A stretch of 32,866 nt of DNA from Sulfurovum sp. (lineage in GTDB: Bacteria > Campylobacterota > Campylobacteria > Campylobacterales > Sulfurovaceae), in NCBI GenBank assembly GCA_030826885.1, contig JAUUDF010000014.1:1-32866 (forward strand). The letters run 5' to 3'. Position numbers and translations under genes: made by a program. A model generated the notes under the pieces. It saw nothing but the letters and a program-made list of their open reading frames with translations. It was not told the DNA's origin and made no database searches. The first letter of the stretch is position 1; every line of letters begins with the position of its first letter. Below, one piece after another: positions 448 through 32,764 of the stretch.

Positions 448-480
448 AGTAATACTCGGGTAACACTCCTGCTGTACAAT
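448..480 (+). promoter_or_regulatory. Candidate Pho box and -10 element
   Basis: AGTAATA (448-454), four bases, then GGTAACA (459-465) form two half-sites with an 11-bp period, the same design as the elements in front of pstS and phoB later in the window. After exactly 9 bp comes TACAAT at 475-480, a good -10 hexamer. The predicted transcription start is near 487, about 32 bp before the ATG at 519. The half-sites match the window consensus TGTAACC imperfectly, so the main support is the shared geometry. Confidence 0.55.
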
Positions 481-518
481 ATTTTTAACAACAAACCTTA
501 TGCAACAAAGGAATATAG

Positions 519-725
519 ATGCTGAAACATTTTACCCCCGTACTGTTCTCTTTTTTTGAACTTCTGTCACTGCAAGCATCCACCACAGAAGCAAAACAGC
601 AGTTTACCGTTACACATATCATGCTTGAGAGACTGCAGAGCGAAGACCTCCCTTCTTTGTCCGAGTATCCTTCTGCAGCAGACCAGAACGATACAAACTA
701 TCGAGGAGGTGACATCACATCATAA
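519..725 (+). CDS. Small exported protein, probably phosphate-regulated
   Basis: The 68-residue protein begins MLKHFTPVLFSFFELLSLQAS, which reads as a signal peptide with a hydrophobic core over residues 6-18. The mature part is short, polar and rich in S, Q, T and D, without cysteines or known motifs. The ribosome site is modest (AAAGGAA at 507-513, 5 bp before the ATG). The main argument for a real gene is the candidate Pho box and TACAAT hexamer at 448-480, at the expected distance upstream. I do not recognise a family. It may be a small periplasmic phosphate-starvation protein, but that function is inference from the promoter alone. Confidence 0.5.
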   Translation: MLKHFTPVLFSFFELLSLQASTTEAKQQFTVTHIMLERLQSEDLPSLSEYPSAADQNDTNYRGGDITS

Positions 726-860
726 TGAAGGCATCACCGGGTTTTGATGACCATACTACTCCTTCCTTCTTCATTGGCATATTCAAAACCCGCGACTGCA
801 GAAGGTACCCTCTTACTTTATATTTTCTAAATAAAAACTTATGTATACTGTAGTAGACTG

Positions 861-882
861 GTGTCATTTCATTTGATGACAC
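861..882 (+). promoter_or_regulatory. Inverted repeat just upstream of the lipoprotein gene
   Basis: GTGTCAT (861-867) and ATGACAC (876-882) form a 7-bp inverted repeat around an 8-bp centre. A TATACT at 844-849 lies just before it, so the repeat would sit over the start of transcription or at the very 5' end of the mRNA, 24 bp before the GTG at 907. It could be a repressor operator or a leader hairpin. There is no direct evidence for either. Confidence 0.35.
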
Positions 883-906
883 ATGCAGATTGTAATGGAG
901 TTTGAT

Positions 907-1818
907 GTGAAACATATTATTTTATTGATAGGCCTCTTTATCATGCAAGGGTGCAGTATCAATCAACTTTTTCTGACTGACGAAATAGACAAAGTCACCA
1001 TTGTCAGACATACTCCGTATCTTAAACATAACAGAGCCTACTTTACACGCGACACCCTCAAGCTTCTGGGGCATAAAAAACCATACCAACTGTTTTTGAA
1101 CCCAAAAACACACGACCTCGGTGTACTGCTTCATCGGGGAGAGAATTATACGCTGTATCATTTTTTCTCCCCTCCAAAGACATCCCGGTTTCATGGAACT
1201 CTGAAAAAAGTGCGTGCTATGTTGAAAAAACAGGGATACAAAGCACTCGAAAATGCAACGCAAGGCGGTTACGTCGTACATACCGGTCCCAGACGCTATA
1301 AGGGAGTCAAGACGTACCTCATCGATATCACCGACTACTCACGGCTGAAAAAGGAGTATGAAAAAGTAATCAGAACCTATAACACTCAATCGCTCTCCTC
1401 TCTTAAAGACACTCTGCCAAAGTCGATGATAGAGCCCTACCTGCGCTACTACTGGCAGCGTGCAGAGGATGAAACACAGAAAAAGGCACTCAGACGTATT
1501 GAGGAAAAGCTCCATATTGTACTTGAACAGTCAGAGACACCCGTACAGATACCGCTCTCCGAGCAGACTCCTTATCACTACTACCGCTATCGCGCCTCCA
1601 TGTATGAACTGGGGAATTACCTTAACAGTACAGAGAGCAGAGCTGCTCTCACACCCGCACAATATACCATTTTGCAGCACAGACTTCAAATACTTCAGCA
1701 AGAGAAACTTCTTGAGGAGGGCTCCCTGGAAACTCTCATTGCTGCCTATGAGAAGAACCATGATCCCCGTTTCAAACAGCGTATTCTCGAGCTTTTAAAA
1801 AAAGAGCGTGCTAACTGA
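907..1818 (+). CDS. Predicted lipoprotein, unknown function
   Basis: The protein of 303 residues starts MKHIILLIGLFIMQGCS. A short hydrophobic stretch ends in a GC pair that fits a relaxed lipobox, with Cys-16 as the probable lipidated residue. The GTG at 907 was chosen over in-frame ATGs at 883 and 895 because GGAG at 897-900 sits 6 bp before it and because it places the signal sequence at the N terminus. The later start explains the otherwise odd leader of acidic residues. The rest is mixed helical and charged, including an SRLKKEYEKVIRTYN stretch and a K/R/E-rich C-terminal half that could be helical repeats. It overlaps the convergent kinase gene by 8 bp. I do not recognise the family. 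Confidence 0.75.
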   Translation: MKHIILLIGLFIMQGCSINQLFLTDEIDKVTIVRHTPYLKHNRAYFTRDTLKLLGHKKPYQLFLNPKTHDLGVLLHRGENYTLYHFFSPPKTSRFHGTLKKVRAMLKKQGYKALENATQGGYVVHTGPRRYKGVKTYLIDITDYSRLKKEYEKVIRTYNTQSLSSLKDTLPKSMIEPYLRYYWQRAEDETQKKALRRIEEKLHIVLEQSETPVQIPLSEQTPYHYYRYRASMYELGNYLNSTESRAALTPAQYTILQHRLQILQQEKLLEEGSLETLIAAYEKNHDPRFKQRILELLKKERAN

Positions 1819-3479: not shown

Positions 3480-3527
3480 CATTCCAAAGAGTATAGGGTA
3501 AAAATATTAACCATGTATTACCCGCCT

Positions 3528-3998: not shown

Positions 3999-4000
3999 TC

Positions 4001-5143: not shown

Positions 5144-5154
5144 CCTCCCCGCAG

Positions 5155-17857: not shown

Positions 17858-18607
17858 TTATGCTGTTTCGCTCTCCTCATTCCAGTGGATAACCTTCCAC
17901 TCCCCCTCCATTGTCTCAACCAGAGCGGTGCAGGACTCTACCCAGTCGCCACAGTTTTTGTATGCTATCCCGTCAATCTGTCGCATCTCAGCCTTGTGTA
18001 TATGCCCGCATATAACCCCATCGTACTCTTTGTGCTTTGCATGCCGGGAGAGAATCGACTCAAAATCCGTAATGAAGCTTACCGACTTTTTAACATTGTC
18101 TTTGACATGTTTGGAGAGTGACCAGTAACGCTTGATCCCAAACTTTTTGCGAAAAAAATTAAGTACGTGATTGAGGTAGAGAAGCACATCATAACCGTAA
18201 TCCCCGATCACGGCAAGCCATTTCTTTGTCATCGTGATAGAGTCGAAAATATCTCCATGCGTAACATAATACCTTTTGCCGTCAAGCGCGACATACTCTT
18301 CCTCATTGGCGATCTTGAGATTGTTCCCTAGAAAAAGTGGCATAAAGGGGCGCAGGAAATCATCATGATTACCCGTGATGAAATAGACGTTGGTTCCCTT
18401 ACGTGCTTTTCGCAAGATTTTCTGCACCACATCCGAGTGTGACTGTCTCCAACGAAATTTACGTTTAAGTGCCCAGCCGTCAATAATATCTCCTACCAGA
18501 TAGAGATTCTCCGATTCATGGGCTTTCATAAATGCCATCAGCGCATCGGCCTGGGAAAACCTGGTACCTAAATGTACATCCGAAATAAAGATCGATCTAT
18601 ATTGCAT
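17858..18607 (-). CDS. LpxH-like metallophosphoesterase
   Basis: The 249-residue calcineurin-fold phosphoesterase shows all five metal motifs: FISDVHLG (9-15), VGDIIDGW, ITGNHDD, VTHGD and CGHIHKAE. It also has the GDWVESCTALVE ending typical of the UDP-2,3-diacylglucosamine diphosphatase-like group. LpxH hydrolyses UDP-diacylglucosamine to lipid X in lipid A synthesis. This protein looks closer to the LpxH2-type relatives whose substrate is unclear, so lipid A synthesis is possible but not assured. It is read toward recQ, with a 68-bp gap. No clear ribosome site is visible. Confidence 0.8.
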   Translation of the reverse strand: MQYRSIFISDVHLGTRFSQADALMAFMKAHESENLYLVGDIIDGWALKRKFRWRQSHSDVVQKILRKARKGTNVYFITGNHDDFLRPFMPLFLGNNLKIANEEEYVALDGKRYYVTHGDIFDSITMTKKWLAVIGDYGYDVLLYLNHVLNFFRKKFGIKRYWSLSKHVKDNVKKSVSFITDFESILSRHAKHKEYDGVICGHIHKAEMRQIDGIAYKNCGDWVESCTALVETMEGEWKVIHWNEESETA

Positions 18608-18847
18608 ACGTCAGTATAGGTACAAAGTATCACCAATTGGAAACAACATATTCATGCGACTATAATCAAACCTGTTGTAGATATGAAAACTGAAGATAAT
18701 ATGTGCGAAAGAGAAAATGCATTAGGGTATTTTGCAAGAAGGGGTGAAGCGACAAAAGCTTCTTTCTTCTTCCTCCCCTCTGGAGTATGCTATCTGCACG
18801 CTTTCCTATTGCAGCAGGGCAGAATACAAACAAAAACAGAAGTCTGC

Positions 18848-19513
18848 TTAGAGCGTCCCCCCTATACGGGCAAAATGGATACGGGATGCGATGTCTTCAA
18901 GTCTGTCAATGATCTTCAGGTTCTTTCTGATGTATTTCAGAAGGTTCATATATTCTTCACTGATCTCATGGTCTTTATGCATCATTTGCAACACCTCTTT
19001 TTCGATCATGCTGTAGACATCATCCGTTTTGCTCGCTTCGACCTCAATTTTGCTTTCGAGCTCTCTTATCCTGTCTTTGTCCTCTGTCTCAAGGACCATT
19101 TCCATGGTATATTCAAGTGCATTGATCGTACAGCGGTTGATTGTAAGAGATTCGTTGATGACACGCTTAATCTCTTTTTTGGTCTCAGGGTTACACACTG
19201 CCATATTTTTTATGTAGTTTTTCTCGTTCGTGGCGATACGCTGCAAAGCGGATGTAATCTTCAGTGCCGCAACCATTTCACGAAGATCCGATGCTTCAGG
19301 AGCGTAGCGTGCGAAGATGACCAAAACAAGATTGTCTATCTCCTCTGTTTTTTTATTGATCTGCTTCAAGGGTACTTTTACTTCATCGAAACTTTTCGGG
19401 TCACACTCTTCAAGTGCTCTGAGTGCGAGCTTTTGGGATATGGTAAGATCCTGCAGTATCTCGACGATCTTTTCGCGTACCTCTTGGAGTTTTTCTTCGT
19501 TTTTGCTTAACAT
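18848..19513 (-). CDS. phoU: Phosphate transport regulator PhoU
   Basis: The 221-residue all-helical protein carries the two PhoU repeats, with acidic metal-binding stretches such as LESKIEVEASKTDDVYSMIEKEV in the second. PhoU links the PstSCAB transporter to PhoR/PhoB signalling and restrains phosphate uptake when phosphate is sufficient. It is the last gene of the pst operon, 41 bp after pstB, with AAAGGA before the ATG. The C-terminal half keeps the family pattern (YMNLLKYIRKNLKIIDRLEDIASRI). Confidence 0.9.
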   Translation of the reverse strand: MLSKNEEKLQEVREKIVEILQDLTISQKLALRALEECDPKSFDEVKVPLKQINKKTEEIDNLVLVIFARYAPEASDLREMVAALKITSALQRIATNEKNYIKNMAVCNPETKKEIKRVINESLTINRCTINALEYTMEMVLETEDKDRIRELESKIEVEASKTDDVYSMIEKEVLQMMHKDHEISEEYMNLLKYIRKNLKIIDRLEDIASRIHFARIGGTL

Positions 19514-19554
19514 GTATTGTCCTTTCAGTATGGATTCAGCAACAAATTTCGGAT

Positions 19555-20346
19555 CTATCCGAATCGTCCTGTAATATAGTCTTCTGTCAGCTTTTGCGCC
19601 GGGCTGAGGAATATCTTCTCTGTCTCATCGAACTCGATGAGTTCTCCCAGATACATAAATGCCGTATAGTCGCTCAGACGGCTTGCTTGCTGCATGTTGT
19701 GGGTAACAATCACTACAGATACCTCCGACTTGAGTTCGGCAATGAGCTCTTCAATGGCAGAGGTTGAAATGGGGTCAAGTGCGGACGTCGGCTCGTCAAA
19801 AAGCAGGATTCTTGGTTTCAGTGCTACCGCACGCGCAATACAGAGACGCTGCTGCTGTCCACCGGACATCCCCAGCGCACTCTCATTCAAACGGTCTTTG
19901 GTCTCTTCCCATATTGCCGCACCTTTGAGTGCACTCTCTACCCTGTCCTCCAGTTCCGTCTTGTTCTTGATGCCTGCAAGTCTCAGTCCGTAAGCGACAT
20001 TGTCGAAAATGCTCATTGGAAACGGCGTAGGCTTCTGAAAGATCATCCCGACCTGTTGGCGCAGCCTGATAAAGTCATTCTCTTTTTTGATCTTCAAAAT
20101 ATTTTCAACAGAACCGTCATCATGATGCAGCTTAATCTCCCCTTCGTATTTGTTCCCCGGATAGAGGTCGTGAATACGGTTCATCGCGCGCAGCAGCGTA
20201 GACTTCCCGCAGCCGCTCGGTCCGATCATCGCGGTGATTTTATTGGCCTCTACCGGCATGGTGATCTTTTTTAAAGAGGGCTTCTCTGCACCCGGATAGG
20301 TAAAAGAGAAATCATTGACTTCCATCACAATATTTTGTGTTGACAT
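19555..20346 (-). CDS. pstB: Phosphate ABC transporter ATP-binding protein
   Basis: The 263-residue ATPase powers the high-affinity phosphate transporter. Motifs are Walker [19 protein letters not shown]-loop [13 protein letters not shown] (the phosphate-transporter form), signature [16 protein letters not shown], Walker [15 protein letters not shown] and switch VTHNMQQA. The start at 20346 gives [10 protein letters not shown] and has AAAGGA upstream; a longer open frame extends back into pstA without support. It begins 23 bp after pstA ends. Confidence 0.97.
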
Positions 20347-20369
20347 AAATATTCCTTTATATATTTCGT

Positions 20370-21179
20370 TTACTTTTTCTTGCGTACCACAAATCGTCCA
20401 AAGAGGTTGATAAACAGAACGATCACCGTCAAAATGAACGACGCCGCCCATGCCAATTCACGGCTTGGTGCATCGGGATAGGTGGCAAGGTTATAAATAC
20501 TGACCGTCAGCGACGGGAACTGTCCATTCAGGTCCATCGTCAAGAACTGGTTGTTCGCCGAGGTAAAGAGCAGCGGCGCAGTCTCTCCGATAATACGGGC
20601 GAATGAGAGCAGTACACCCGTCATGATCCCAACCTTCGCTGCACGAATGACGATCTGAAGGATGATCTTGTGCTTGCTTCCGCCCAGTGCGATCCCTGCT
20701 TCACGCAGTTCTTGAGGCACCAGTGCCAGCATGCTGTCTGTCGTGGAAATAATAATGGGCACCATCATAATCGCCAGTGCCGTTGCCCCTGCCCATCCGT
20801 TGTAGGTATCTACCGGTGCGACCATAAGCGCAAAGACAAAGACACCGATGACAATAGAGGGGGCGGACATCATCACATCACTGAGATTTCTGATAACCGC
20901 AGAAAACTTGCTCCCCACGCCGTATTCACGCAGGTAGATACCCGCCATCATCCCTACCGGCACCGCAACAGCCGTGGCGATCAGTGCCATGGTAAACTGA
21001 CCTATGAGCAGGTTACGGATTCCCCCTTCAACAAGGTCTTTACTGAAGGTGTCCCAACTGATGCTCATGATTCCTTTGTAACTGAGTGTCACCAAAATCC
21101 AGAACAAAAACCCTATGCCGACAAGTGCGGAGAGAGTCGAAAGTACAAGTATGATCTTATTAAGTAGCAGTCTGTTCAT
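20370..21179 (-). CDS. pstA: Phosphate ABC transporter permease PstA
   Basis: The 269-residue inner-membrane permease has about six transmembrane helices, including one at residues 10-32, and the coupling-loop motif [26 protein letters not shown] that contacts Pst[15 protein letters not shown] is characteristic of PstA. It ends in basic RFVVRKKK. It starts 1 bp after the pstC stop codon. Confidence 0.96.
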
Positions 21180-21180
21180 C

Positions 21181-22035
21181 TTACTTCACCTTTCTGCCAA
21201 AGAAATAGAATTTTGCCAATGAGATGACGACAAAACTCACCGCAAACAATATGAGTGCCAGATAATACATACTGCTCATTTCAAGATCTTCCGCTTCGGC
21301 AAAGTTATTTGCCAACAGTACCGGAATGGAAGTTGTAGGGTCGGTAATCTTTGACGGAAAATTCATTACCGATCCAATAAGGAAGGCTACGGCCATCGTC
21401 TCACCAAGTGCACGGCCCAGTGCAAGAATAATCGAACCGATGATTCCCCCTTTGGCATAGGGCATGATCACATCCTTAATGACTTCGAACTTGGTTGCCC
21501 CCATAGCATAGGCAGACTCTTTGAGTACTGAAGGGGTGGTGTTCATGGAGTCTCTGGTAATCGCTGCCATAAACGGAATGATCATAATTGCCAGTACGAT
21601 TCCCGCCGTCAACAGCCCGACACCATTGCCCCCAAATATGTCATGTACGATCGGGGCGAAATAGAACAGTCCCCACATACCGTAGATGATACTCGGAATC
21701 GCCGCAAGCAGTTCAATAGCGATCGAGACCGGTTTGGAGACCGTTTCCGAAGCGATCTCTGTAAGAAAAATGGCAATCCCCATAGCCAACGGTGTTGCCA
21801 GTACCATGGCTATAATCGTACTGAGCAGTGTGCCTGCAATGGGAATGAGTCCGCCAAAGACGCCGCCTTCGTCATCTTCTCCCGGCTCCCACTGTTCCGT
21901 CCAGAAAAAATCGAAGCCAAATGTGTGCATTGCATCCTGCGCATAATGGAACAGGATTGCAAAAATACCCACCAGCAAAACCAGAGACAGTGTCGCCGAA
22001 AAAAATGAAAAATTCCGGAAAAGTTTTCCGCCCAT
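21181..22035 (-). CDS. pstC: Phosphate ABC transporter permease PstC
   Basis: The 284-residue permease partner of PstA has about six membrane helices, the PstC stretch LLAAIPSIIYGMWGLFYFAP, and the coupling loop VLKESAYAMGATKFEVIKDVIMPYAKGGI. It contains a periplasmic loop rich in acidic residues (EQWEPGEDDEGGVFGG). The gene is separated from pstS by 249 bp containing a hairpin and a candidate Pho box with its own -10, so it may be transcribed both with and without pstS. Confidence 0.95.
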   Translation of the reverse strand: MGGKLFRNFSFFSATLSLVLLVGIFAILFHYAQDAMHTFGFDFFWTEQWEPGEDDEGGVFGGLIPIAGTLLSTIIAMVLATPLAMGIAIFLTEIASETVSKPVSIAIELLAAIPSIIYGMWGLFYFAPIVHDIFGGNGVGLLTAGIVLAIMIIPFMAAITRDSMNTTPSVLKESAYAMGATKFEVIKDVIMPYAKGGIIGSIILALGRALGETMAVAFLIGSVMNFPSKITDPTTSIPVLLANNFAEAEDLEMSSMYYLALILFAVSFVVISLAKFYFFGRKVK

Positions 22036-22137: not shown

Positions 22138-22170
22138 ATTGTATATAAAAGAGATTACATTTTGGTAACC
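22138..22170 (-). promoter_or_regulatory. Candidate Pho box and -10 element before pstC
   Basis: On the plus strand GATTACA (22153-22159), TTTT, GGTAACC (22164-22170) give two half-sites at 11-bp period. In the gene direction TACAAT (complement of 22138-22143) follows after exactly 9 bp. This is nearly the same sequence as the element before phoB. It would give pstCAB-phoU a promoter separate from pstS. Confidence 0.65.
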
Positions 22171-22284: not shown

Positions 22285-23286
22285 TTATTTGATCCCTTTG
22301 CTCTCCCAGTATTTTCTGATTTCATCTTTTGTAGAAGATGGAAGCGGTACATAACCAAGCTCAGCTGCTGCTTTGTCTCCGTTTTTGTATGCCCAGTCAA
22401 AGAACGCTGTCACTTGCTTGTTTGTCTCTTTCTTCTCTTCAGGGAGCAGAATGAATGTTGCCGCTACGATCGGATAAGAGGTTGCACCTGCAGGGTCCCC
22501 GATAACCGCGTAGAAGTCATTTTTAGGTGTCCAGCTCGCATATTTTGCCGCATCCTGGAAAGACTTGACAGTAGGGTTGATGAATTTACCCTCTTTGTTC
22601 TCTACCTGTGCTGCAGGAAGACCAAGTTTGATCTTGTATGAATACTCGATATACCCGATAGAACCTTTGATCTGCTGAATGTTCGCAGAAACACCGGAGT
22701 TTGATTTACCCGCAACGACTTTGCTCGCTGTCCAGGTAGGTTTTTTGCTCACTTTGAACTCTGGATTGATTTTGTTCAGGAAATATGTAAAGTTGAATGT
22801 TGTACCTGACTTGTCCGCTCTTACACATGTTGTGATCGCTTTATGAGGGAGATTAACGCCTTCATTGTCTTTTTTAATGATTGCATCATCCCAGAATTTC
22901 GCTTTACCGGAGAAGATAGCATCAATCGCTGCACGTGAAAGTTTCAGTTCACCGTCTTTTACACCGTCAAGGTTGTACGCCAGTACAATAGAACCGACTA
23001 CTGAAGGGAACATATAGAGTTTGTTTTTTCTCAGTACCTCAGGCTTGAGAGGCTTGTCTGAACCTGCAAAATCGACCATACGTTTTTTGATAGACTTGAT
23101 ACCGTCACCGGAACCTGTTGGTGTATAGTTTACTTTTTTACCGGTTGCTTTAAAGTACTCGGATGTCCATGCTTTATATACTGGTCCGGGGAAAGAAGCA
23201 CCTCTACCTTTGAGTTCGTCTGCCTGTACCGCTGTCAGTGCAACAGATGCCGCGACTGCTGCCGTTACGAGTTTTTTGAAAGTCAT
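22285..23286 (-). CDS. pstS: Periplasmic phosphate-binding protein PstS
   Basis: The 333-residue protein has a Sec signal peptide (MTFKKLVTAAVAASVALTAVQA, cut after residue 22) and PstS phosphate-binding stretches GRGASFPGPVYKAW, TGSGDGIKSIKKRMVDFAGSDKPL and TTCVRADKSGTTFNF. It delivers phosphate to PstCA. The ATG at 23286 was chosen because AAAGGA lies upstream and the signal peptide starts there; a longer frame upstream runs into the promoter. A candidate Pho box with TATACT lies 46-78 bp upstream, so induction by phosphate starvation through PhoB is likely. Confidence 0.96.
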   Translation of the reverse strand: MTFKKLVTAAVAASVALTAVQADELKGRGASFPGPVYKAWTSEYFKATGKKVNYTPTGSGDGIKSIKKRMVDFAGSDKPLKPEVLRKNKLYMFPSVVGSIVLAYNLDGVKDGELKLSRAAIDAIFSGKAKFWDDAIIKKDNEGVNLPHKAITTCVRADKSGTTFNFTYFLNKINPEFKVSKKPTWTASKVVAGKSNSGVSANIQQIKGSIGYIEYSYKIKLGLPAAQVENKEGKFINPTVKSFQDAAKYASWTPKNDFYAVIGDPAGATSYPIVAATFILLPEEKKETNKQVTAFFDWAYKNGDKAAAELGYVPLPSSTKDEIRKYWESKGIK

Positions 23287-23331: not shown

Positions 23332-23364
23332 AGTATAGAACAACTTGGAAACAAATTGGTTACA
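23332..23364 (-). promoter_or_regulatory. Pho box and -10 element of pstS
   Basis: In the gene direction TGTAACC, AATT, TGTTTCC (complement of 23347-23364) is followed after 9 bp by TATACT (complement of 23332-23337). The start of transcription would be near 23325, 39 bp before the ATG. Position in front of pstS, the classic PhoB target, makes this the anchor site for the motif. Its first half-site overlaps the stop region of the OlsF-like gene. Confidence 0.72.
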
Positions 23365-25078
23365 CCCCTATGTAACGTTTCCGTTTGTTCTCTTTCATCT
23401 TCTCCAGATCAACAAGAATGAACCCGTCTACACAGTAGTTAAAGTGTTTGTCATACCCAAAGTCCATAAACTGCACACCGCCCTTCTCACACACTTCCGC
23501 ATACTGCTTGTAAAGTGTCGGAATACTAAATCCCATATAGGAGAGCTCTTCTCTGAGTACCCTCTGGTCTGCCTTGTAGTCGCATCCGCAGAATATCTCT
23601 TCACAGTAGTGCTTCATCTCCGCCGGAATTTTGTAGGGCGCTTTGTGTCTGACCAGCGGTTTTTCTGCATGAAAGTATGTGGTGTAAAAGTAGACCATCA
23701 GTGCCTTTGCCTGTACCGTGAAACTGTCACTCAGACTTACTGGGCCAAACAGGTAGCGTATGTGAGGATGGTTCCGGACATAGGCTCCAAGCCCCTGCCA
23801 CAGGTAGTCAAGTGCTCTGGAGTTCCAGTACTTTGGCTGCACAAAACTTCTTCCCAGCTCCAGTCCCTGCGAAAAATAGGATGTAAACGCATCGCTGAAC
23901 TTAAAGAGTGTACTGGTGTAAAGCCCCTCTACCCCAAAATCTTCAATAATCTCGTCACATTCACCAATGCGGTATGCACCGGCGATCTCCAGGTTTTCAT
24001 TATCCCAGATGATCAGGTGTTTGTAGTAGAAATCGTACCCGTCAATATCGCGCTTCTCTCCGGTCCCTTCACCAACATGCCTGAAACTGATCTCTCTTAG
24101 ACGGCCTATCTCTTTAATGACACAGTTTTCGATACTGCTTTCATAAAGAATGATCATCTTGCCGTCTGTTGTTTCCCCCAGAAGCTCTCCTTTTTTCAAT
24201 TCAGCCTTGATATCACCGGGTGCTTCCGAGAGAGAGATGCCTTTTTGCACTTTCAGCAACTCCGGTTTCCCCTTCGCAATACGGTAGAAATGCCGTCTGA
24301 GCAGTTTTACCGCTTCCTTTTGAGGCAAACCGGCAATGGCATAGCTCTCGTAGGGGATGGCATTGCCAATACGGAATCCTATCTCCTTGCCATACGACTT
24401 GAACATCTCATGCGGCAGTGTTGCCGTTGCCAGAGAACGGTTCAGCATGGAGAGCAGGTAGAAACTTTTGGAGTTGGTCGCCTGTATGTAAATGGGAAGG
24501 ATGGGCGCATAGTATTTGCGCGCTATCTTGTAAAATCCAGGCTTCCAACGGGTATCTTTGACACCATTCATCCGCGCACGGCTCACTTCCCCCGAAGGAA
24601 AAATAATCACAGCCTCTTCGTTTTCAAGTGCCTGCTGAATACGCATGAGCGTCTCTTTGGTCATTTTGCCGTTGACATTGTCTACGGGAATGACCATCTC
24701 CTTGAGGTTGTCAAACTGGGCTAAAAAGGCATTGGCGACAATTTTGACATCTTTTCGTACGCTTTTAAGCAGATGCAGCATCGCCATGGCATCAAGCGCA
24801 CCGAGTGGATGGTTGGCAATGATCACCGTGCGTCCGTAGGGGGGAATGTGGCTGAGCTCATTTTGTTTGAGGGCTATCTCCACCTCGAAGTACTCCAGTA
24901 TCGCCTCAATGAAACTGAACGCATCCTTGTGCCTGTTCTTGGCAAGAAAATCATTGATCTGCGACTCGTGAAAGATCTTCTTTACTGACCCGAAGAGTAT
25001 ATTCTTTGCCTTTTTAGGAAACTTTTCCAAAAGCGGGTAGTGATGTGCAAGGTAGTTCTCTACACTTACCTGTCCCAT
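23360..25078 (-). CDS. olsF: OlsF-like bifunctional acyltransferase (ornithine-lipid type)
   Basis: The 572-residue protein joins two acyltransferase domains. The N-terminal half is PlsC-like, with NHPLGALDAM (His and Asp of the active site) near 90-100 and IIFPSGEVSRARMNG near 160. The C-terminal half is of the OlsB/GNAT type, with AGAYRIGE, YTSTLFKFSDAF, ELGRSFVQPKYWNSRALDYLWQGL and YLFGPVSLSDSF. This fusion is the design of OlsF, which acylates ornithine twice to make phosphorus-free ornithine lipid. Its place between a Pho-box promoter and pstS fits membrane remodelling in low phosphate. The amino-acid head group is not visible from sequence. Its ATG overlaps the stop of the preceding small gene (TAATG). 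Confidence 0.75.
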   Translation of the reverse strand: MGQVSVENYLAHHYPLLEKFPKKAKNILFGSVKKIFHESQINDFLAKNRHKDAFSFIEAILEYFEVEIALKQNELSHIPPYGRTVIIANHPLGALDAMAMLHLLKSVRKDVKIVANAFLAQFDNLKEMVIPVDNVNGKMTKETLMRIQQALENEEAVIIFPSGEVSRARMNGVKDTRWKPGFYKIARKYYAPILPIYIQATNSKSFYLLSMLNRSLATATLPHEMFKSYGKEIGFRIGNAIPYESYAIAGLPQKEAVKLLRRHFYRIAKGKPELLKVQKGISLSEAPGDIKAELKKGELLGETTDGKMIILYESSIENCVIKEIGRLREISFRHVGEGTGEKRDIDGYDFYYKHLIIWDNENLEIAGAYRIGECDEIIEDFGVEGLYTSTLFKFSDAFTSYFSQGLELGRSFVQPKYWNSRALDYLWQGLGAYVRNHPHIRYLFGPVSLSDSFTVQAKALMVYFYTTYFHAEKPLVRHKAPYKIPAEMKHYCEEIFCGCDYKADQRVLREELSYMGFSIPTLYKQYAEVCEKGGVQFMDFGYDKHFNYCVDGFILVDLEKMKENKRKRYIGV

Positions 25079-25287
25079 TATGCGATCCTGTAGAGTTCAT
25101 TGGTTTGCGCAATGAAATGCTCGCTTACAGCTTTGGCTTTTTTATGTGCCGCAAAGAGACTCTCAACCAGATCCCACTCTTCGTAGATCACTTCATAGGC
25201 TTCTTCTGTCGATATACCGAATGCTTTTGCAAGGCGCTTGGCAAGCTTGTCCAGTTTCTTGTCCGAAATCATACTTTCATCTGTCAT
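25078..25287 (-). CDS. Small helical protein upstream of the OlsF-like gene
   Basis: The 69-residue soluble protein (starting MTDESMISDKKLDKLAKRL) is rich in charged helix, with GISTEEAYEVIYEEWDLVESLF and a KKAKAVSEHF segment. The ATG at 25287 is preceded by GGAG 8 bp away; in-frame ATGs upstream at 25299 and 25401 lack a ribosome site. Its stop overlaps the start codon of the OlsF-like gene (TAATG), so the two are translationally coupled. It could be a partner or regulator of that enzyme; I do not recognise a family. Confidence 0.72.
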   Translation of the reverse strand: MTDESMISDKKLDKLAKRLAKAFGISTEEAYEVIYEEWDLVESLFAAHKKAKAVSEHFIAQTNELYRIA

Positions 25288-25336
25288 GATGTGCTCCATT
25301 CTAAATAGATAAGAAACAATAATATATACCGATAAC

Positions 25337-25370
25337 AAAATAGCTACACAATGGAAACATTCCTGTAACC
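25337..25370 (-). promoter_or_regulatory. Candidate Pho box for the small protein and olsF
   Basis: In the gene direction GGTTACA, GGAA, TGTTTCC (complement of 25353-25370) shares its second half-site with the pstS box. A weak TATTTT (complement of 25337-25342) follows after 10 bp. The core GTTAC is read equally on both strands. It lies back to back with another candidate box serving the divergent gene at 25455. Confidence 0.5.
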
Positions 25371-25392: not shown

Positions 25393-25425
25393 TGTTACCA
25401 CTTCGATACCAAACTAAATTACTAT
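25393..25425 (+). promoter_or_regulatory. Candidate Pho box and -10 element for the 77-residue protein
   Basis: TGTTACC (25393-25399), ACTT, CGATACC (25404-25410) are followed after exactly 9 bp by TACTAT (25420-25425). Predicted start is near 25432, with AAGGAG at 25441-25446 and ATG at 25455. The second half-site is weak, but the spacing is the same as at pstS. Confidence 0.55.
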
Positions 25426-25454: not shown

Positions 25455-25688
25455 ATGGAAAATATTTTTATAGTCAGACAGTTTGAAAGCGGCTGGGACG
25501 TGGAAGAAATTGCAGAAGATATGTACCTTCAGGAGGAATACTGCATAGAGGCCCTTCAAATCCCCGATGAGAAGATCTATGGAACCGAGATGATCGGCAA
25601 GCATCTGCTTGAAGTAGTACTGACAGACATTCAGGAGGAGGAGCTCTCCGAAGGCTGGTATGTCAACCTCACACGCATCAGTGCCTGA
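25455..25688 (+). CDS. Small protein of a Pho-associated paralogous pair, unknown function
   Basis: The 77-residue soluble acidic protein starts MENIFIVRQFESGW at an ATG with AAGGAG 8 bp upstream. It aligns end to end with the 87-residue product of 30286-30549. Both share MEN at the start, F5, a GW pair (13-14 here), IP at 36-37, His-50, Glu-53, WY at 68-69, L72 and RIS at 74-76. It has no signal peptide or membrane helix. Both genes lie behind candidate Pho boxes, so a role in phosphate stress is inferred. I know no family for them. Confidence 0.8.
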   Translation: MENIFIVRQFESGWDVEEIAEDMYLQEEYCIEALQIPDEKIYGTEMIGKHLLEVVLTDIQEEELSEGWYVNLTRISA

Positions 25689-26663: not shown

Positions 26664-28040
26664 TCAGTACTGCTTCTTTTCAAATATGCGCTCTGTAAAT
26701 TCTGCAAAACGCCCTCTTACTGCTTTGTCAAGCGAAATGGCGAACATCTTCACCTCATCATGACTGAAGCGCGTCTGCTTCATCAGTGCTGTCAGTCCGT
26801 TGTTGTAGCGGTTGAGGTAGAGGTTATCTATCTGCCGGTTCGAGCCGATCACCACCGCCATGCAACTCTCATCGAGCCGTGAAAGAATGAGCTGCGTCGT
26901 CTTTTCCGAAGCGTTCTGCCACTCATCCATGATGACGATCGCATCGCTGAGGGTGCGCCCCCTCGCCTCTCCCGGCCACAGCATTTCAATGCCGTAACGC
27001 TCCATAAGCTCATCCATTTTAGAACGGATAGACTCCTCACGCTCCCTGTTTTGGTGCTTTTTGAGTCGCTTCTTGGCGATGAATTCGAGTGTATCGTAGA
27101 GCGCCATATTGTAAATGCGGAACTTCTCTTCATTGCCTGCAAGAAAGCCTACTTCCGATCCCTTGTCCAGCGACTCGATGGAGTTTCTGACATAGACGAT
27201 CTTCTCATACATCCCCTTGTCGATCAGACGCATGGCCGCAGCAATGCTCAAGAGTGTTTTCCCGCTGCCCGCTTTTGCATCGACAACAAGCAGATCATAC
27301 GTATCAGAAAGCATCGCTTTGAGAAAAAACTTCTGTTTCAGGTTTGCAGGGCGCACCGCAAGCGCATGAAAAACTGAATCATCTATGACCTCGATCCGCT
27401 CTCCGCTTACGATGGCATAAGCACTGTTGCCGTCTTCTGCATAGAAGCTGTAGCAAAAATTCTCAGGTTTGTGTCCGGGGTCAAACTCACCGATGGAGGC
27501 AAAGGGAAGTCTGTTAAAGTGAGAAGAATCAAGCGGTACCCGTTTGACAAAATCAAATTCGGGCATATCCGATCTGTCATCGTGCAAGGTTTCAGCTTTT
27601 ATATTCTTCAGCAGTGCAAACATCCTCGCATAGATATCGATAGAGAGGAACCGTACTTTCAATCCCTTGTAATACTCCTGTGCAAGTTCCGCAACCTCGA
27701 CAATGCGCTTGTCGTTACTCTCTGCAAGATTGTGCTCGAGCATTTCACTCTCATATTTGTCTTTGGAGATCAGATGAATATGCATTCTGTCCACAACCAT
27801 TTTGACTACTTTATAGTGCTTCTTGTAGTCGACCTCCTTTGTTTTCGCCCTTGCCAGCAGTCTGGCAAACTCTCTTGAGTTGTACCCGAGCTCATCAAGA
27901 AGCTTCTTTTTATCCTCAAGTTCTATCAAGACTGTCTCGGGTATGACGACAATGTTATTTCCGCGATCTGCAATATTGTAAAGATGCTGCAGGTTTTGTA
28001 GAATGATATTGGTATCGACCACATAGACTTTCTGTTTCAT
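26664..28040 (-). CDS. PIN domain and PhoH-type ATPase (PhoH2 family)
   Basis: The 458-residue protein has an N-terminal PIN nuclease domain (VVDTNIILQNLQHL with Asp-8, then PETVLIELEDKK) and a C-terminal PhoH ATPase domain. The ATPase shows Walker A VDAKAGSGKTLLSIAAAM, YVRNSIESLDKGSEVGFLAG and Walker B VIMDEWQNAS. The family more often has DEAQN; here Ala is replaced by Trp. PIN-PhoH proteins are RNA helicase-nucleases in the cases studied. AAAGGA precedes the ATG. Two GTTAC-type elements lie 150-200 bp upstream, consistent with the Pho-regulon origin of the PhoH name. Confidence 0.92.
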   Translation of the reverse strand: MKQKVYVVDTNIILQNLQHLYNIADRGNNIVVIPETVLIELEDKKKLLDELGYNSREFARLLARAKTKEVDYKKHYKVVKMVVDRMHIHLISKDKYESEMLEHNLAESNDKRIVEVAELAQEYYKGLKVRFLSIDIYARMFALLKNIKAETLHDDRSDMPEFDFVKRVPLDSSHFNRLPFASIGEFDPGHKPENFCYSFYAEDGNSAYAIVSGERIEVIDDSVFHALAVRPANLKQKFFLKAMLSDTYDLLVVDAKAGSGKTLLSIAAAMRLIDKGMYEKIVYVRNSIESLDKGSEVGFLAGNEEKFRIYNMALYDTLEFIAKKRLKKHQNREREESIRSKMDELMERYGIEMLWPGEARGRTLSDAIVIMDEWQNASEKTTQLILSRLDESCMAVVIGSNRQIDNLYLNRYNNGLTALMKQTRFSHDEVKMFAISLDKAVRGRFAEFTERIFEKKQY

Positions 28041-28185: not shown

Positions 28186-28238
28186 AAGAGTAACCTGGTT
28201 ACATAAGACATACAGGAGTGTAAACCAAAACGGTTACA
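28186..28238 (-). promoter_or_regulatory. Two candidate Pho elements upstream of phoH
   Basis: A palindrome GTAACCTGGTTAC occupies 28190-28202. A second element, GGTTACA at 28232-28238 with TAAACCA 11 bp before it, reads TGTAACC-N4-TGGTTTA in the gene direction. A possible -10 TATGTC (complement of 28207-28212) follows after 8 bp. Half-sites outside the GTTAC cores are poor, so this is less secure than the pstS or phoB boxes. The leader to the phoH ATG would be about 160 nt. Confidence 0.45.
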
Positions 28239-28247
28239 GGACGATAA

Positions 28248-28526
28248 CTATTTGCTCTCTTCTTTTTTCTTTGGATGCTTTTTGGCAAAGCCCGCACCCT
28301 TCTTTTTTTTATACTCAAGGTTGAGCTCTTCTGCGACCGCCCTGTAGTCCAGCCCGGCACGATGCATAGTGGCAAAACATGCCGCAGCTACGGCAATGGC
28401 ATTGGGTACTTCGCCTTTCTGCTTGTACGATTGCAGATTTTTCTCGCTGACCTTGAGAAGTTTGCTGAATTTCGGCAGTGTTATTTCAGCATCTATCAGC
28501 AGTTTTTTAAACTCGGAAAATGTCAT
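28248..28526 (-). CDS. Small helix-turn-helix DNA-binding protein
   Basis: The 92-residue protein starts MTFSEFKKLLID, with GAGGG 5 bp before the ATG; a TTG six codons upstream is a less likely start. LPKFSKLLKVSEKNLQSYKQKGEVPNAIAV reads as a helix-turn-helix of the small Cro/XRE kind. The C terminus is very basic (KKKKGAGFAKKHPKKKEESK) and may add nonspecific DNA binding. Two TATAAT-like elements lie upstream on the minus strand. It is divergent from the histone-like gene at 28680, with 153 AT-rich bases between, so it may control that gene or itself. Confidence 0.75.
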   Translation of the reverse strand: MTFSEFKKLLIDAEITLPKFSKLLKVSEKNLQSYKQKGEVPNAIAVAAACFATMHRAGLDYRAVAEELNLEYKKKKGAGFAKKHPKKKEESK

Positions 28527-28679: not shown

Positions 28680-28880
28680 ATGGCAAAGACATTGAAGAAA
28701 AAAGCGGTTAAAAAAGTATCTGTGAAAGCAACAAAGAAAGCGGTAGCGAAAAAAGTCATCAAGAAAAAAGATGCAAAAAAAGTAGCGAAAAAAATCACCA
28801 AGCTTGTACTGAAAAAAGCACCTGCAAAGAAAAAAGCAGCCAAAAAACTGGCCAAAAAAGCAGTAAAAAAAGTAGCATAA
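28680..28880 (+). CDS. Histone H1-like lysine-rich DNA-binding protein
   Basis: The 66-residue protein starts MAKTLKKKAVKK and consists almost entirely of lysine, alanine and valine, with repeated KK(A/V)xK(K) units and a KKAPAKKKAAKK stretch. It has no aromatic or cysteine residues. This composition is that of the bacterial H1-like (HC1-type) nucleoid proteins that bind DNA through charge. The ATG at 28680 has AAAGGA 6 bp upstream; a longer open frame adds only a hydrophobic leader without support. The perfect consensus promoter suggests high expression. Confidence 0.82.
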   Translation: MAKTLKKKAVKKVSVKATKKAVAKKVIKKKDAKKVAKKITKLVLKKAPAKKKAAKKLAKKAVKKVA

Positions 28881-28924: not shown

Positions 28925-30292
28925 CTATTGTGCCCTTGCAAGGGCACGATGCTGATACTTCTGCATTTTTTTCTCGAACATCTTCATGGAAACTTCCTCT
29001 ATGAGTTTTTCCTTTTTATCGACCTTGTAATCATATTTTTGTTCAAATGTCTCTATCTGAATCGCTCTGTAGAGCTGCATGATCTTGTGATTCGTCAGCC
29101 CGCCGAGAAAATTTCTAAGCAGCATCAGCTCCTCTTTCCGGTATGACGCTTTGTCCAATCCGGCCGTTTTAAGATGCTCAAGCGCATGACGGTAAGTCAT
29201 ACTGTCAATCAGCCTCTCATCATATGTTTTGAAGAGAAAATATTTCGAGACGGTCGTAAAATAGTGGTTATATGGCTTTTTAATATTTTTAACCTTCTTC
29301 GAACCCCATATATATTCGGAAGCAATATGTTTAAAATCCGTTCGTAGCTTTTCTATCTTCTCGTTGACCGGTACCAGCCTTCCCTCCTGCGTGAGCACAA
29401 AATTGCGATTGAATGCCATGGAGAGCGCATTCATCACATTCTGAAATACGGTCTTGGCATGACTCTCCTGCTGCAGTGTTTCAACAAGAAGCTCTCTAAT
29501 TTGCATCTTCTCAATATGCTTCTCGTCCACTCCTGAAAACTGCTGTCTGTCCAGGTAGACCAGTTTGGCGATCTCCTTGACACGTACATCGCTTCGTACC
29601 ATCTGCATTATAATACGTATCAGTTTTTCTTTCGAGTAAATGTTGAGCACATCAATGATATCCGTCACACGGTACCGGTTCTCATCTGCAAGGTCCATCG
29701 CCTGTGCCAGTATGGTCTTTCCCGTTGTGTTTGTAACCGCTATACCCTTCTCTGCCAAATAGCGTTCTTCCGTAGCAATCGCCTCATCAAGGTACGTTTC
29801 AAGATAGAGATACTCAGGGTACTGTTTTAATTCTTTTTTTCGTTTAATCAGCGAAGCCAGCGCATACCGTTTGACATCTTCGGGCAACCCTTCGAAAAGT
29901 CTGTATTTTTCAATACGTCTGAAATTGTTCAGATTTGCATTGAAACGGATACGCTGTTCAAATGTCGCCGAGGCCTTCTGCAGCAGAGTATCGAGAATAA
30001 CCTCGCCGTCATGACTGAATGCCGTATGCCCGATGTCATGCACCATCCCGACAATCCGGGCGACCTGAAAAAAGTTTAGGTCAACCTCTCCAGTAAGCCT
30101 CTGCGATACACTTTTTAACAAATATTCGGTTGAGAGTCCTACCTCAACTGAGTGACTGTAGCGGTTTCGTATGCTGTCCCGGGTCTTTTTGGAGAGATAC
30201 ATCGGTATCTCTTTAAGACGGACAAATATTTTATGCCCTACAATATGCATCTCCGCCGCTTCTATACGCGATCGGTCCGTAGCGTCTAACAC
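28925..30292 (-). CDS. HD-domain dNTP triphosphohydrolase-like protein
   Basis: The 455-residue protein carries the HD metal site of dGTPase-type enzymes: RYSHSVEVG (His-47), VHDIGHTAFSHDGE (His-85, Asp-86) and AQAMDLADENRYRVTDIID, which contains the last acidic ligand. Such enzymes hydrolyse dNTPs to nucleosides and triphosphate, or act on related substrates. The start is taken as GTG at 30290-30292, which overlaps the end of the preceding small gene by 7 bp; an ATG 14 codons later is the alternative. The coupling to a small Pho-associated gene is notable. The exact substrate is not known. Confidence 0.83.
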   Translation of the reverse strand: MLDATDRSRIEAAEMHIVGHKIFVRLKEIPMYLSKKTRDSIRNRYSHSVEVGLSTEYLLKSVSQRLTGEVDLNFFQVARIVGMVHDIGHTAFSHDGEVILDTLLQKASATFEQRIRFNANLNNFRRIEKYRLFEGLPEDVKRYALASLIKRKKELKQYPEYLYLETYLDEAIATEERYLAEKGIAVTNTTGKTILAQAMDLADENRYRVTDIIDVLNIYSKEKLIRIIMQMVRSDVRVKEIAKLVYLDRQQFSGVDEKHIEKMQIRELLVETLQQESHAKTVFQNVMNALSMAFNRNFVLTQEGRLVPVNEKIEKLRTDFKHIASEYIWGSKKVKNIKKPYNHYFTTVSKYFLFKTYDERLIDSMTYRHALEHLKTAGLDKASYRKEELMLLRNFLGGLTNHKIMQLYRAIQIETFEQKYDYKVDKKEKLIEEVSMKMFEKKMQKYQHRALARAQ

Positions 30293-30549
30293 ATACTCCC
30301 TTTACAACTCTCTTTTCTGACAGAGATCCTCTCAAGCTGCTTATACCATGTTTCATTCATAGCACTTTCTGAGACCTTAAGAATGATCTCCAGGTGCCCG
30401 TTTTCGACCAGTGCTGCATTAACGATATTGTCTTTCGGTATGCCCAGCCTCTTTCGCGAATACTCCAGCCCATATCTCTCCGCCGCAAATCCGCAGAACA
30501 TCCAGCCAGTATCAATCTGTATCACAGGAACAACAAACATATTTTCCAT
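30286..30549 (-). CDS. Small protein of a Pho-associated paralogous pair, unknown function
   Basis: The 87-residue protein begins MENMFVVPVIQIDTGW and resembles the 77-residue protein at 25455-25688 along its length: GW at 15-16, IP at 37-38, His-52, Glu-54, WY at 68-69, L72 and RIS at 74-76, plus a short basic, cysteine-bearing tail. The ATG at 30549 has AAGGAG 9 bp upstream. A longer frame back to 30714 would start inside the Pho box and was rejected. A Pho box with TATACT lies upstream. The stop overlaps the HD-domain gene. Function unknown. Confidence 0.8.
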   Translation of the reverse strand: MENMFVVPVIQIDTGWMFCGFAAERYGLEYSRKRLGIPKDNIVNAALVENGHLEIILKVSESAMNETWYKQLERISVRKESCKGSMC

Positions 30550-30690: not shown

Positions 30691-30723
30691 AGTATAGACA
30701 CTCTTGGTAACCAAACGGTTACA
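30691..30723 (-). promoter_or_regulatory. Pho box and -10 element for the 87-residue protein
   Basis: In the gene direction TGTAACC, GTTT, GGTTACC (complement of 30706-30723) is followed after 9 bp by TATACT (complement of 30691-30696). The -10 and spacing equal those at pstS. The box overlaps the stop codon of phoB, so the gene has its own promoter within the end of phoB. The leader is about 135 nt. Confidence 0.7.
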
Positions 30724-31402
30724 GGAGCTTGTATCCTACGCCCCATACGGGCGCAAAGTACTCTTTTGTACCTTCCGGGTCTATTTTCTTTTTCAGGCGG
30801 TTCATCGCCACATTGATGGTTTTGTCATGAAAGTCCGGGTTGTCACTGCCCCATACTGCATCGCGGATGAAGTCTCTATCGAGCGGCTGTCCCGGATTTT
30901 TAATGAAGGTATGCAGCAGCTTGAACTCCAGGTTGGTAAGTTCGACTTGTTTCCCCTCAATACTCAGTGTATGATGCCCTACATCCAATATCATATCACG
31001 GTATTTGATCTTTTCATTTTGGGTCACCCCGGAACGCCTCAGCAGTGCCTCTACGCGCAACAGCAGCTCTTTGGGTTTGAAGGGTTTTGTCATATAGTCA
31101 TCGCCCCCCGAACGAAAGCCCTGTTCAAGGTCTTCATCACGGTCACGGGCGGTAAGAAAAATAACCGGTATCGTATATCCCTGCTCTCGCAGGTAGGCGA
31201 CAAATTCACTCCCTTCGATGCCTGGAAGGTTTCTGTCGACAATCATCAGCGAGGGCTCCTCTTCTTCCAGAAAACGTTCCACCTGTTCAGTAGAGAGAAA
31301 CCCCGTAGCACTATAGCCCTCTTTCGTAAGATGATACTCCAGAAGTTCCAGAATATCCTCTTCATCCTCAATAACCACAATCTCAATATCTTGTTTTTGC
31401 AT
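30719..31402 (-). CDS. phoB: PhoB-like response regulator (OmpR family)
   Basis: The 227-residue regulator has a receiver domain with the acidic pair EDEED at 12-16, phosphoacceptor Asp-56 in MIVDRNLPGIEG, FLTARD and MTKPF with the conserved lysine. The C-terminal winged-helix domain has LTNLEFKLLHTFIKNPGQPLDRDFIRDAVWG, then NVAMNRLKKKID and PVWGVGYKLL, close to PhoB. PhoB activates phosphate-starvation genes. The regional context (pst, phoU, porin, Pho boxes) supports this name. No PhoR kinase lies next to it. A nearly perfect Pho box stands only 20 bp before the ATG, implying autoregulation. Confidence 0.85.
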   Translation of the reverse strand: MQKQDIEIVVIEDEEDILELLEYHLTKEGYSATGFLSTEQVERFLEEEEPSLMIVDRNLPGIEGSEFVAYLREQGYTIPVIFLTARDRDEDLEQGFRSGGDDYMTKPFKPKELLLRVEALLRRSGVTQNEKIKYRDMILDVGHHTLSIEGKQVELTNLEFKLLHTFIKNPGQPLDRDFIRDAVWGSDNPDFHDKTINVAMNRLKKKIDPEGTKEYFAPVWGVGYKLL

Positions 31403-31407
31403 GGCGT

Positions 31408-31440
31408 ATCCTAAACTTTTCCGGTTACATTTTGGTTACA
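31408..31440 (-). promoter_or_regulatory. Near-perfect Pho box at the phoB start
   Basis: In the gene direction TGTAACC-AAAA-TGTAACC (complement of 31423-31440) is the clearest example, two identical 7-mers 11 bp apart. TAGGAT (complement of 31408-31413) lies 9 bp after it. That hexamer may be a -10, giving an mRNA that begins at the ATG, or may be the ribosome site AGGA. If it is only the latter, transcription would come from TATGAT (complement of 31450-31455) and the box would lie downstream as an operator. A palindrome TGACGCGTCA adjoins at 31441-31450. Confidence 0.7.
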
Positions 31441-31550
31441 TGACGCGTCATCATACCGGGTAGACAACCCTCTTTGAAAAGTATAGCAAAATTTACGCGC
31501 AAGAGGAAAGAGCGTCGGGAAAACGCACTTTTCCGCACTTATGCATCATG

Positions 31551-32696
31551 CTAAAACTTGATAATTGCATCCAGTTGTACACGTTCATAGTCGGCTTCTT
31601 CTCCACTTTTGCTTTTACTCGCATAGAGTGTGTCAAAAAAGAAGTTCCCCGCAATATAGAGGTTTTTGCCCATTTTATATTTGGTTCTGATAGCATGACC
31701 CTTGGCCGCTGTACCGCCGCCGAAGTTGTCTGAGTCGGAATATGCCCCAAACACTGCATCTTCCTGCAGATCGGTATAAGAGTATTTTACCTGCCAGTCA
31801 CCGACATGTTTTGCCTTCCCTAACTGAAAGGCAAGATCATACCCGAAGTTGTTGTCGTCAGCCCCAAAGTTGTATGCCACGCCCGCAGCTACCTTGAACG
31901 GCATTCCGAAAACATCTTTAAACTGCAGCTCTCCAAATGCCTCAACAATGTGGTAGTCATTTACATAGACACCATCGACAACAGTGTTTCCTTTGCTTTT
32001 ACCAAACATTGGCGTATTGCCTTTTAATCCGTCATAGTAGTACATCCCTGCACCAACATTGAACTTTGCCGTATCCATTTTATCTGTATAGACATACTGG
32101 GCAATCAGAAGATCTACATCATCCTGCGCAACCGAGTTCTCTTCGAGTGTCGGTCTGTTCGCTCCGATTGTGACTCTGTTGTATTCATCTTTGTACTGGT
32201 AGTTGACCCCGTTGAGCGATACATCGTTATCCCAGACAAGCTGTGACTTTATTGGTCTGTACATCATGTAGGGTTCTCTACCTATCTTTACAGTGTGCTC
32301 TTTTTCATGGTATGTCAATCCCAGAATATTGAATCTCAGTGACTGAAAGAAGTAATCACCCAAAGGCTCGTCATCACGGAATGTCTGGTTGCCTGAGGTC
32401 GGGTTGCCAAATCCACTCCGCATACCGACATCGAATCGAAGGTAATCTGTAAGATCGACCCTCATACCAAGCCTTAAACGGTACCTGTTTCTGTACTTGT
32501 TGTCCCTATCGTCACGTTCGATGCTCTCGTATCGCAATCTCAGGTCGCCCTTGAAGTGAACCCTTTCAAGCACGTGTGTTGTAGAGAAATAATCCGGATT
32601 TTCCGGTTTTACCATACGCTCATGCGGGGTACGCACATCTGAGTCCGCCATAGAAAGTGTTGCCACTGCTGTCGTTGAAAGTAAAATCTTTTTCAT
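31551..32696 (-). CDS. Outer membrane porin, probably phosphate-regulated
   Basis: The 381-residue protein has a short signal peptide (MKKILLSTTAVATLSMA) and a mature part of alternating beta strands (FKGDLRLRYESIERDD, RNRYRLRLGMRVDLTDYLRFDVGMR), ending LDAIIKF with the terminal aromatic residue of outer membrane barrels. It resembles the putative porins of Campylobacterota. A candidate Pho box lies 51-68 bp upstream and phoB is next downstream, so a role in uptake of phosphate or polyanions is plausible but inferred. AAAGGA precedes the ATG. A 76-bp piece of the gene recurs inverted at the window edge. Confidence 0.88.
   Translation of the reverse strand: MKKILLSTTAVATLSMADSDVRTPHERMVKPENPDYFSTTHVLERVHFKGDLRLRYESIERDDRDNKYRNRYRLRLGMRVDLTDYLRFDVGMRSGFGNPTSGNQTFRDDEPLGDYFFQSLRFNILGLTYHEKEHTVKIGREPYMMYRPIKSQLVWDNDVSLNGVNYQYKDEYNRVTIGANRPTLEENSVAQDDVDLLIAQYVYTDKMDTAKFNVGAGMYYYDGLKGNTPMFGKSKGNTVVDGVYVNDYHIVEAFGELQFKDVFGMPFKVAAGVAYNFGADDNNFGYDLAFQLGKAKHVGDWQVKYSYTDLQEDAVFGAYSDSDNFGGGTAAKGHAIRTKYKMGKNLYIAGNFFFDTLYASKSKSGEEADYERVQLDAIIKF
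32417..32492 (-). repeat. Inverted repeat arm inside the porin gene
   Basis: This 76-bp segment of porin coding sequence (roughly residues 69-93, from RNRYRLRLG to VGMR) is exactly complementary to 32791-32866. The arms enclose 298 bp holding the porin 5' end and promoter. The repeat may continue past the window edge. Confidence 0.9.
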
Positions 32697-32731
32697 GTTA
32701 TGTTTCCTTTGTCTGTTTGTTAGGTAAAAGA

Positions 32732-32764
32732 AAAACAGGAAAAAAGAGTAACAAACTGGTTACA
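32732..32764 (-). promoter_or_regulatory. Candidate Pho box upstream of the porin gene
   Basis: In the gene direction TGTAACC-AGTT-TGTTACT (complement of 32747-32764) has 11-bp period. The hexamer 9 bp further on is TGTTTT (complement of 32732-32737), a poor -10. Predicted start is about 29 bp before the porin ATG. Confidence 0.6.

Follow-up and report, generated by a model that had tools for sequence, protein, structure and literature searches.

A probable Pho regulon in a Sulfurovum contig, with lineage-specific half-sites and predicted leaderless promoters at phoB and a PlcP-like gene

A stretch of 32,866 nucleotides from Sulfurovum sp. (assembly GCA_030826885.1, contig JAUUDF010000014.1; hereafter the window) carries phosphate transport genes, a PhoB-like response regulator and recurrent pairs of 7-nucleotide repeats, and thus raises the question of whether these repeats are Pho boxes, which genes they control and how far their design is peculiar to this lineage. 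The window represents 2% of the source genome (57 contigs, 1.65 Mb) and is 86% coding. A first-pass annotation of the window had listed nine such elements and interpreted them as a phosphate-starvation regulon with a box design of its own. By our analysis, a large part of the Pho regulon of a Sulfurovaceae-type bacterium very probably lies in the window, and the boxes are very probably Pho boxes controlling the genes listed below. The box layout as such is already known and the half-site letters are lineage-specific, while the new element is a predicted leaderless arrangement at phoB and at a gene for a PlcP-like phosphoesterase.

The promoters in the window follow a composite plan of 33 positions, TGTWWCC-N4-TGTWWCC-N9-TAnnnT, comprising the box, a gap of 9 bp and the -10 hexamer:

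23332..23364, minus strand: pstS promoter (box 23347-23364, -10 TATACT at 23332-23337; 43.6 bits, 0 mismatches to the composite)
22138..22170, minus strand: pstC promoter (box 22153-22170, -10 TACAAT at 22138-22143; 20.3 bits)
25316..25370, minus strand: smA-olsF promoter (boxes 25353-25370 and 25331-25348, -10 TATTGT at 25316-25321; proximal box 18.0 bits)
25393..25425, plus strand: smB promoter (box 25393-25410, -10 TACTAT at 25420-25425; weak, 10.1 bits, 2 mismatches)
28217..28249, minus strand: phoH promoter (box 28232-28249, -10 TACACT at 28217-28222; 20.1 bits, 2 mismatches)
30691..30723, minus strand: smC promoter (box 30706-30723, -10 TATACT at 30691-30696; 27.6 bits, 1 mismatch)
31408..31440, minus strand: phoB promoter (box 31423-31440, -10 TAGGAT at 31408-31413; 18.9 bits, 0 mismatches)
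32732..32764, minus strand: porin promoter (box 32747-32764, poor -10 TGTTTT; 16.6 bits)
18613..18645, minus strand: promoter of the PlcP-like gene (box 18628-18645, -10 TATACT at 18613-18618; weak, 10.6 bits)

The genes behind these promoters are the following:

22285..23286, minus strand: pstS (TIGR00975, 303.6 bits, above the cut-off of 205)
18848..22035, minus strand: pstC, pstA, pstB and phoU (profile matches)
23360-25078, minus strand: olsF, encoding a bifunctional OlsF (NF052615, 775.1 bits, above the cut-off of 620)
25078-25299, minus strand: smA, a small gene upstream of olsF (translated open reading frame; smA and olsF together span 23360..25299)
25455..25688, plus strand: smB, 77 amino acids, function not assigned, paralogue of smC
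26664..28040, minus strand: phoH, encoding a PIN-PhoH protein (profile matches)
30286..30549, minus strand: smC, paralogue of smB
30719..31402, minus strand: phoB/phosR-like gene for an OmpR-family response regulator (Response_reg and Trans_reg_C)
31551..32696, minus strand: Porin_5-type porin (Porin_5 domain)
17858..18607, minus strand: PlcP-like metallophosphoesterase (Metallophos domain, PF00149)

The window thus contains 7-nucleotide direct repeats with a 4-nucleotide spacer, a fixed distance to a -10 hexamer that takes the place of a -35 element, and phosphate genes downstream, as expected of Pho boxes. To keep the window sites from being judged by themselves, we derived the scoring matrix from 28 pstS promoters of other genomes in the family (28 of 29 regions kept; L175, with a partial pstS, was dropped before counting). 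A scan of the window with this matrix returned nine sites of at least 10 bits, the next best reaching 6.7 bits, compared with a mean of 0.025 such sites in 200 dinucleotide shuffles, among which five reached 10 bits and one reached 15. Exact GTWAC pairs at a pitch of 11 bp occur three times in the window, against a mean of 0.06 and a maximum of 2 in 300 dinucleotide shuffles; when GTTTC/GAAAC is also allowed, there are five pairs, against 0.43 on average and at most 5 in the shuffles. The composite, allowed up to two mismatches, has 15 matches in the whole genome, seven of them in the window (binomial P ~7e-9), and all seven are intergenic or overlap the 3' end of the preceding gene by at most 5 nucleotides. 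Two of the eight matches outside the window overlap each other.

Conservation points in the same direction. Across 60 genomes of the family, this one included, the composite with at most one mismatch has 104 matches, versus 15 for its reversed control, and 47 of the 60 genomes contain at least one. When the pstS box was picked without information on the -10 hexamer, TAnnnT was found at exactly 9 bp in 26 of the 28 promoters from other genomes of the family, and the claim of a phosphate-starvation regulon is therefore well supported. The signal extends to eight other families of the phylum, where the best box has TAnnnT at 9 bp in 23 of 25 pstS upstream regions and in 20 of the 21 with at most three mismatches; in this phylum sample, pstS was found at the threshold used in 28 of 121 genomes. 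Some of these families have TGTTTCC half-sites; the pstS upstream regions of families f2 and f3 contain GTTTC half-sites, and a GTTTC half-site is also part of the pstS box of the window. The motif had been proposed as a search term for the regions before pstS and phoB in relatives; there, sites are common before pstS and present in 13 of 28 phoB regions. Individual promoters recur as well: the pstC genes of relatives also have upstream Pho boxes, the smA-olsF promoter of one relative (L013) reads GGTAGCC gttt TGTTACC, 9 bp, TATGAT, and the porin promoter of Sulfurovum sp. L042 reads AGTAACA attt TGTAACC, 9 bp, TATACT. The phoH gene is present in two of the 59 other genomes, one of which has an 8.5-bit site with TATACT at 9 bp and the other none.

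Not every element of the first-pass annotation withstood this analysis. All nine 18-mers are present where they had been placed, and the five -10 hexamers assigned to them indeed lie exactly 9 bp away, but only six of the elements stand as described. The one at 448..465 is rejected as a Pho box, scoring -7.4 bits on the plus and -8.8 bits on the minus strand, and it is absent from the composite matches even at up to three mismatches. The element at 25353 fails as a promoter of its own (-7.1 bits, without a -10) and is instead the distal half of an array of four half-sites, whose proximal box at 25331-25348, in 11-bp phase with it and followed by TATTGT 9 bp beyond, had been overlooked; on the minus strand, this array reads GGTTACA ggaa TGTTTCC attg TGTAGCT attt TGTTATC, 9 bp, TATTGT. 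At 28221, a Pho box is present, although its register was wrong by one repeat, the correct box being 28232-28249 with TACACT 9 bp later. The promoter of the PlcP-like gene at 18613-18645 had also been missed. A near-perfect palindrome, GTAACCTGGTTAC, lies at 28190-28204 in the phoH leader, outside the 11-bp plan.

Several observations weigh against the reading of these boxes as a regulon. The possibility that the motif is a chance pattern or a general promoter-like repeat unrelated to phosphate is favored by its loose forms, which genome-wide are as common as their reversed controls: the bare half-site pair occurs at 10 sites versus 14 for the control, the 18-mer with up to two mismatches at 36 versus 45, and the composite with up to three mismatches at 60 versus 53. 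The bare pair GTWAC-N6-GTWAC, rarer than its reversed control, was rejected as useless for genome-wide searches, and the informative pattern is the strict composite only, whose reversed control in this genome was counted at up to three mismatches. An 11.9-bit site at L194:8104, in a stretch of this genome taken for another match, indicates that real DNA is less clean than the shuffles, and because of it the weakest window sites (25393, 10.1 bits; 18613, 10.6 bits) cannot be accepted on score alone. In addition, no fewer than five of the 104 matches in the family represent a near-identical TGTATCC..TGTATCC..TATATGG stretch (G041:C6:189107, G054:C118:4392, G012:C31:1241, G008:C148:24021 and G018:C5:34477), which is probably something other than a Pho promoter, and among the 28 regions upstream of phoB in relatives, 15 lack a site of at least 4 bits. 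The strict forms of the motif, however, cluster at phosphate genes in the window and stand before pstS across the phylum, which makes a phosphate-independent repeat extremely improbable.

The identity of the regulator is a further point to consider. The best NCBIfam match of the protein encoded at 30719-31402 is PhoB (TIGR02154), but its score of 170 bits lies below the cut-off of 296.2, and we therefore call it PhoB/PhosR-like; moreover, no kinase gene adjoins phoB in the window. The genome has 14 HisKA places, 11 of which were covered by the NCBIfam comparison. Among these 11, the kinase at C29:40301 (L285:1042-2091) has the top PhoR score (153.6 bits versus a cut-off of 334.2) and lies between peptidase and ferredoxin-type genes with no adjoining regulator, and the kinase at C41:20916 also has PhoR as its best match (93.1 bits). 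It is conceivable that another OmpR-type regulator, such as the one encoded at 2847-3482, reads the boxes, given that regulators of this family often share direct-repeat sites and that this protein, unlike PhoB, has its own adjoining kinase. Yet it is the 30719-31402 gene that has its own Pho box and whose product is closer to PhoB (170 versus 80.3 bits). This protein is matched at 62-81% in seven further genomes of its genus, its best named relatives being from Sulfurovum sp. and the Lamellibrachia satsuma symbiont, and in the record of the latter its gene lies directly before pstS. We thus consider it very unlikely that a different regulator reads the boxes.

We infer that the 30719-31402 protein binds the boxes and induces the genes behind them at low phosphate, and the following sequence of events can be envisaged. 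Under phosphate shortage, the PhoB/PhosR-type regulator would presumably be phosphorylated and bind head to tail on two TGTWWCC half-sites 11 bp apart, from where it would recruit sigma-70 RNA polymerase to the -10 hexamer 9 bp downstream, with the box replacing the -35 element. Such binding would switch on phosphate uptake through pstS, pstC with the genes behind it, and porins, probably together with lipid remodeling through olsF and the PlcP-like phosphoesterase, and it would likewise activate phoH, the two paralogous small proteins and the regulator's own gene. Phosphate uptake, ornithine-lipid synthesis and the PlcP-like enzyme would thus be placed under one predicted switch.

How special is the design of these boxes? 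The first-pass annotation had emphasized their shared geometry, but the Pho promoters of E. coli MG1655, with half-sites read from TGT to compare pitch and gap, share both the 11-bp pitch and the 9-bp gap. We take the hexamers given here to be their true -10 elements:

phoA: TGTCATA aagt TGTCACG, 9 bp, TATAGT
pstS: TTACATA taac TGTCACC, 9 bp, TATTTT
phoB: TTTCATA aatc TGTCATA, 9 bp, CATAAT
phoE: TGTAATA tatc TTTAACA, 9 bp, TAAAAA

The identical spacing in these four promoters rules out geometry as a special feature, and the E. coli pstS promoter, with four half-sites, even resembles the smA-olsF array in its layout. What stands of the claimed design is the sequence of the half-sites, which is TGTCATA-like in E. 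coli and TGTWWCC in the window. E. coli PhoB and the regulator of the window are 35% identical and have different recognition helices, a difference that fits the differing half-site letters but does not explain them. The geometry is hence kept from E. coli to the Sulfurovaceae while the letters differ, in agreement with a review in which the 7+4 direct-repeat layout of the Pho box is general whereas its letters vary with the species (PMC4415409).

A comparison within the same phylum is offered by the PhosS/PhosR system of C. jejuni. Its PhosR box, GTTTCNAAAANGTTTC, would share the 11-bp pitch and, with its GTTTC half-sites, would agree with the TGTTTCC half-sites of some families of the phylum. 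In C. jejuni, phosS lies beside phosR, whereas phoB of the window has no adjoining kinase. According to two studies, PhosS/PhosR controls the pst genes and phoX (PMC3197622; PMC9449129).

Two promoters of the window stand out by their position. At phoB (TAGGAT acgcc ATG) and at the PlcP-like gene (TATACT gacgt ATG), the -10 hexamer ends only 5 nucleotides before the ATG, which for phoB lies at 31402, and both genes have an in-frame stop shortly upstream of the ATG with no start codon in between. In relatives, with repeated upstream regions merged, 8 of the 13 phoB regions with a site of at least 4 bits (28 regions in total, at least 60% identity) have the -10 hexamer 5-7 nucleotides before the ATG (L012-L016, L021, L023 and L042); in one more, L018, in-frame ATGs lie at distances of 0 and 6 nucleotides. 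The same spacing is found in 14 of the 15 PlcP-like regions that have a site, with the two copies of this genome counted (20 regions in total, L297-L316; a twenty-first, L317, was dropped at 39% identity), versus none of the 29 pstS promoters with a site. Of these 29 pstS regions, 28 had served to train the matrix, which affects their scores but not their distance to the ATG; the start rule for pstS gave one 3-nucleotide spacer and one region in which no start was found.

With a -10 hexamer 5-7 nucleotides before the ATG, transcripts should begin at the start codon, and the phoB and PlcP-like mRNAs are therefore predicted to be leaderless. For the family as a whole, we propose only tentatively that leaderless mRNAs, with a start set by the Pho box, encode the Pho regulator and the phospholipid-degrading enzyme, and that pstS keeps an ordinary leader. 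Alternatively, both genes could give rise to ordinary leadered mRNAs from other promoters, with the close -10 hexamer not being the main start. In three PlcP-like relatives, a GTG start lies 24 nucleotides after the -10 hexamer, in three others the gene lies close behind another gene, and the phoB regions that lack a site would fit such an arrangement as well. The stop codons near the ATG of both window genes and the spacing shared by most of the relatives with a site, but by none of the pstS promoters, speak against this alternative, which we regard as rather doubtful. If the leaderless arrangement is correct, the regulon would comprise two translation classes, and leaderless translation would add a second, built-in level of control during phosphate starvation. 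Among the matches listed in a search of the open-licence literature, there was neither a Pho box in Sulfurovum or other sulfur-oxidizing Campylobacterota nor a leaderless phoB. Our data provide a cross-tested, family-wide Pho box model for this group and, with the phoB and PlcP-like promoters, a concrete prediction on transcript starts.

The PlcP-like protein is LpxH-like in databases, although its scores are far below the LpxH cut-offs (57.3 versus 134 bits for NF003743; 50 versus 190.35 bits for TIGR01854). It shares 45.7% identity with an S. meliloti protein encoded near an acyl-homoserine lactone synthase and a LuxR-type gene, a position that we take to be occupied by PlcP, the lipid-remodeling phospholipase C. 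Together with olsF, the PlcP-like gene suggests that lipid replacement may be part of the regulon. Putative Pho boxes were reported in 2015 for the plcP clusters of marine bacteria (PMC4796936), and a methanotroph study from 2022 links PlcP to phosphate-limited lipid remodeling and discusses OlsF (PMC9239053). PlcP of Sinorhizobium meliloti and the marine plcP clusters resemble the gene of the window in placing a phosphoesterase under a putative Pho box, whereas the latter differs from the known clusters in its neighbors, recQ and phoU, and in its predicted leaderless promoter. A second PlcP-like copy in the same genome (G000:C18:10654-11428, L316) has a Pho-type promoter 7 nucleotides before its ATG.

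The small proteins SmB and SmC are 35-36% identical, and each is encoded behind its own Pho box. A search with SmB listed at least 80 proteins, itself included, and those few that carry an organism name come from Sulfurovum or Sulfurimonas. No Pfam family exceeded its cut-off for SmB, and its structure model, although confident (predicted local distance difference test score, pLDDT, of 93.9), had no PDB match at E <= 0.001.

The best match to the composite outside the window (C2:1315-1347, 0 mismatches) lies upstream of a gene for a 389-amino-acid protein. Searches of this protein against Pfam and NCBIfam profiles gave no match, but two of its 120 listed relatives have PF07396, which we take to be Porin_O_P, and for one the source name begins with 'Phosphate-specific ou'; the gene was provisionally taken as a porin gene and counted for the regulon. 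A 24.9-bit site at C29:18848 was left uncounted, its downstream frame looking non-coding. Three half-sites in 11-bp phase are present at G000:C30:40963-41017 (L189:4964-5018), with an IS200-like transposase gene downstream. The window itself also encodes a dGTPase-like HD protein, small open reading frames and, at 28680-28880 on the plus strand, a small histone-H1-like protein rich in lysine and alanine.

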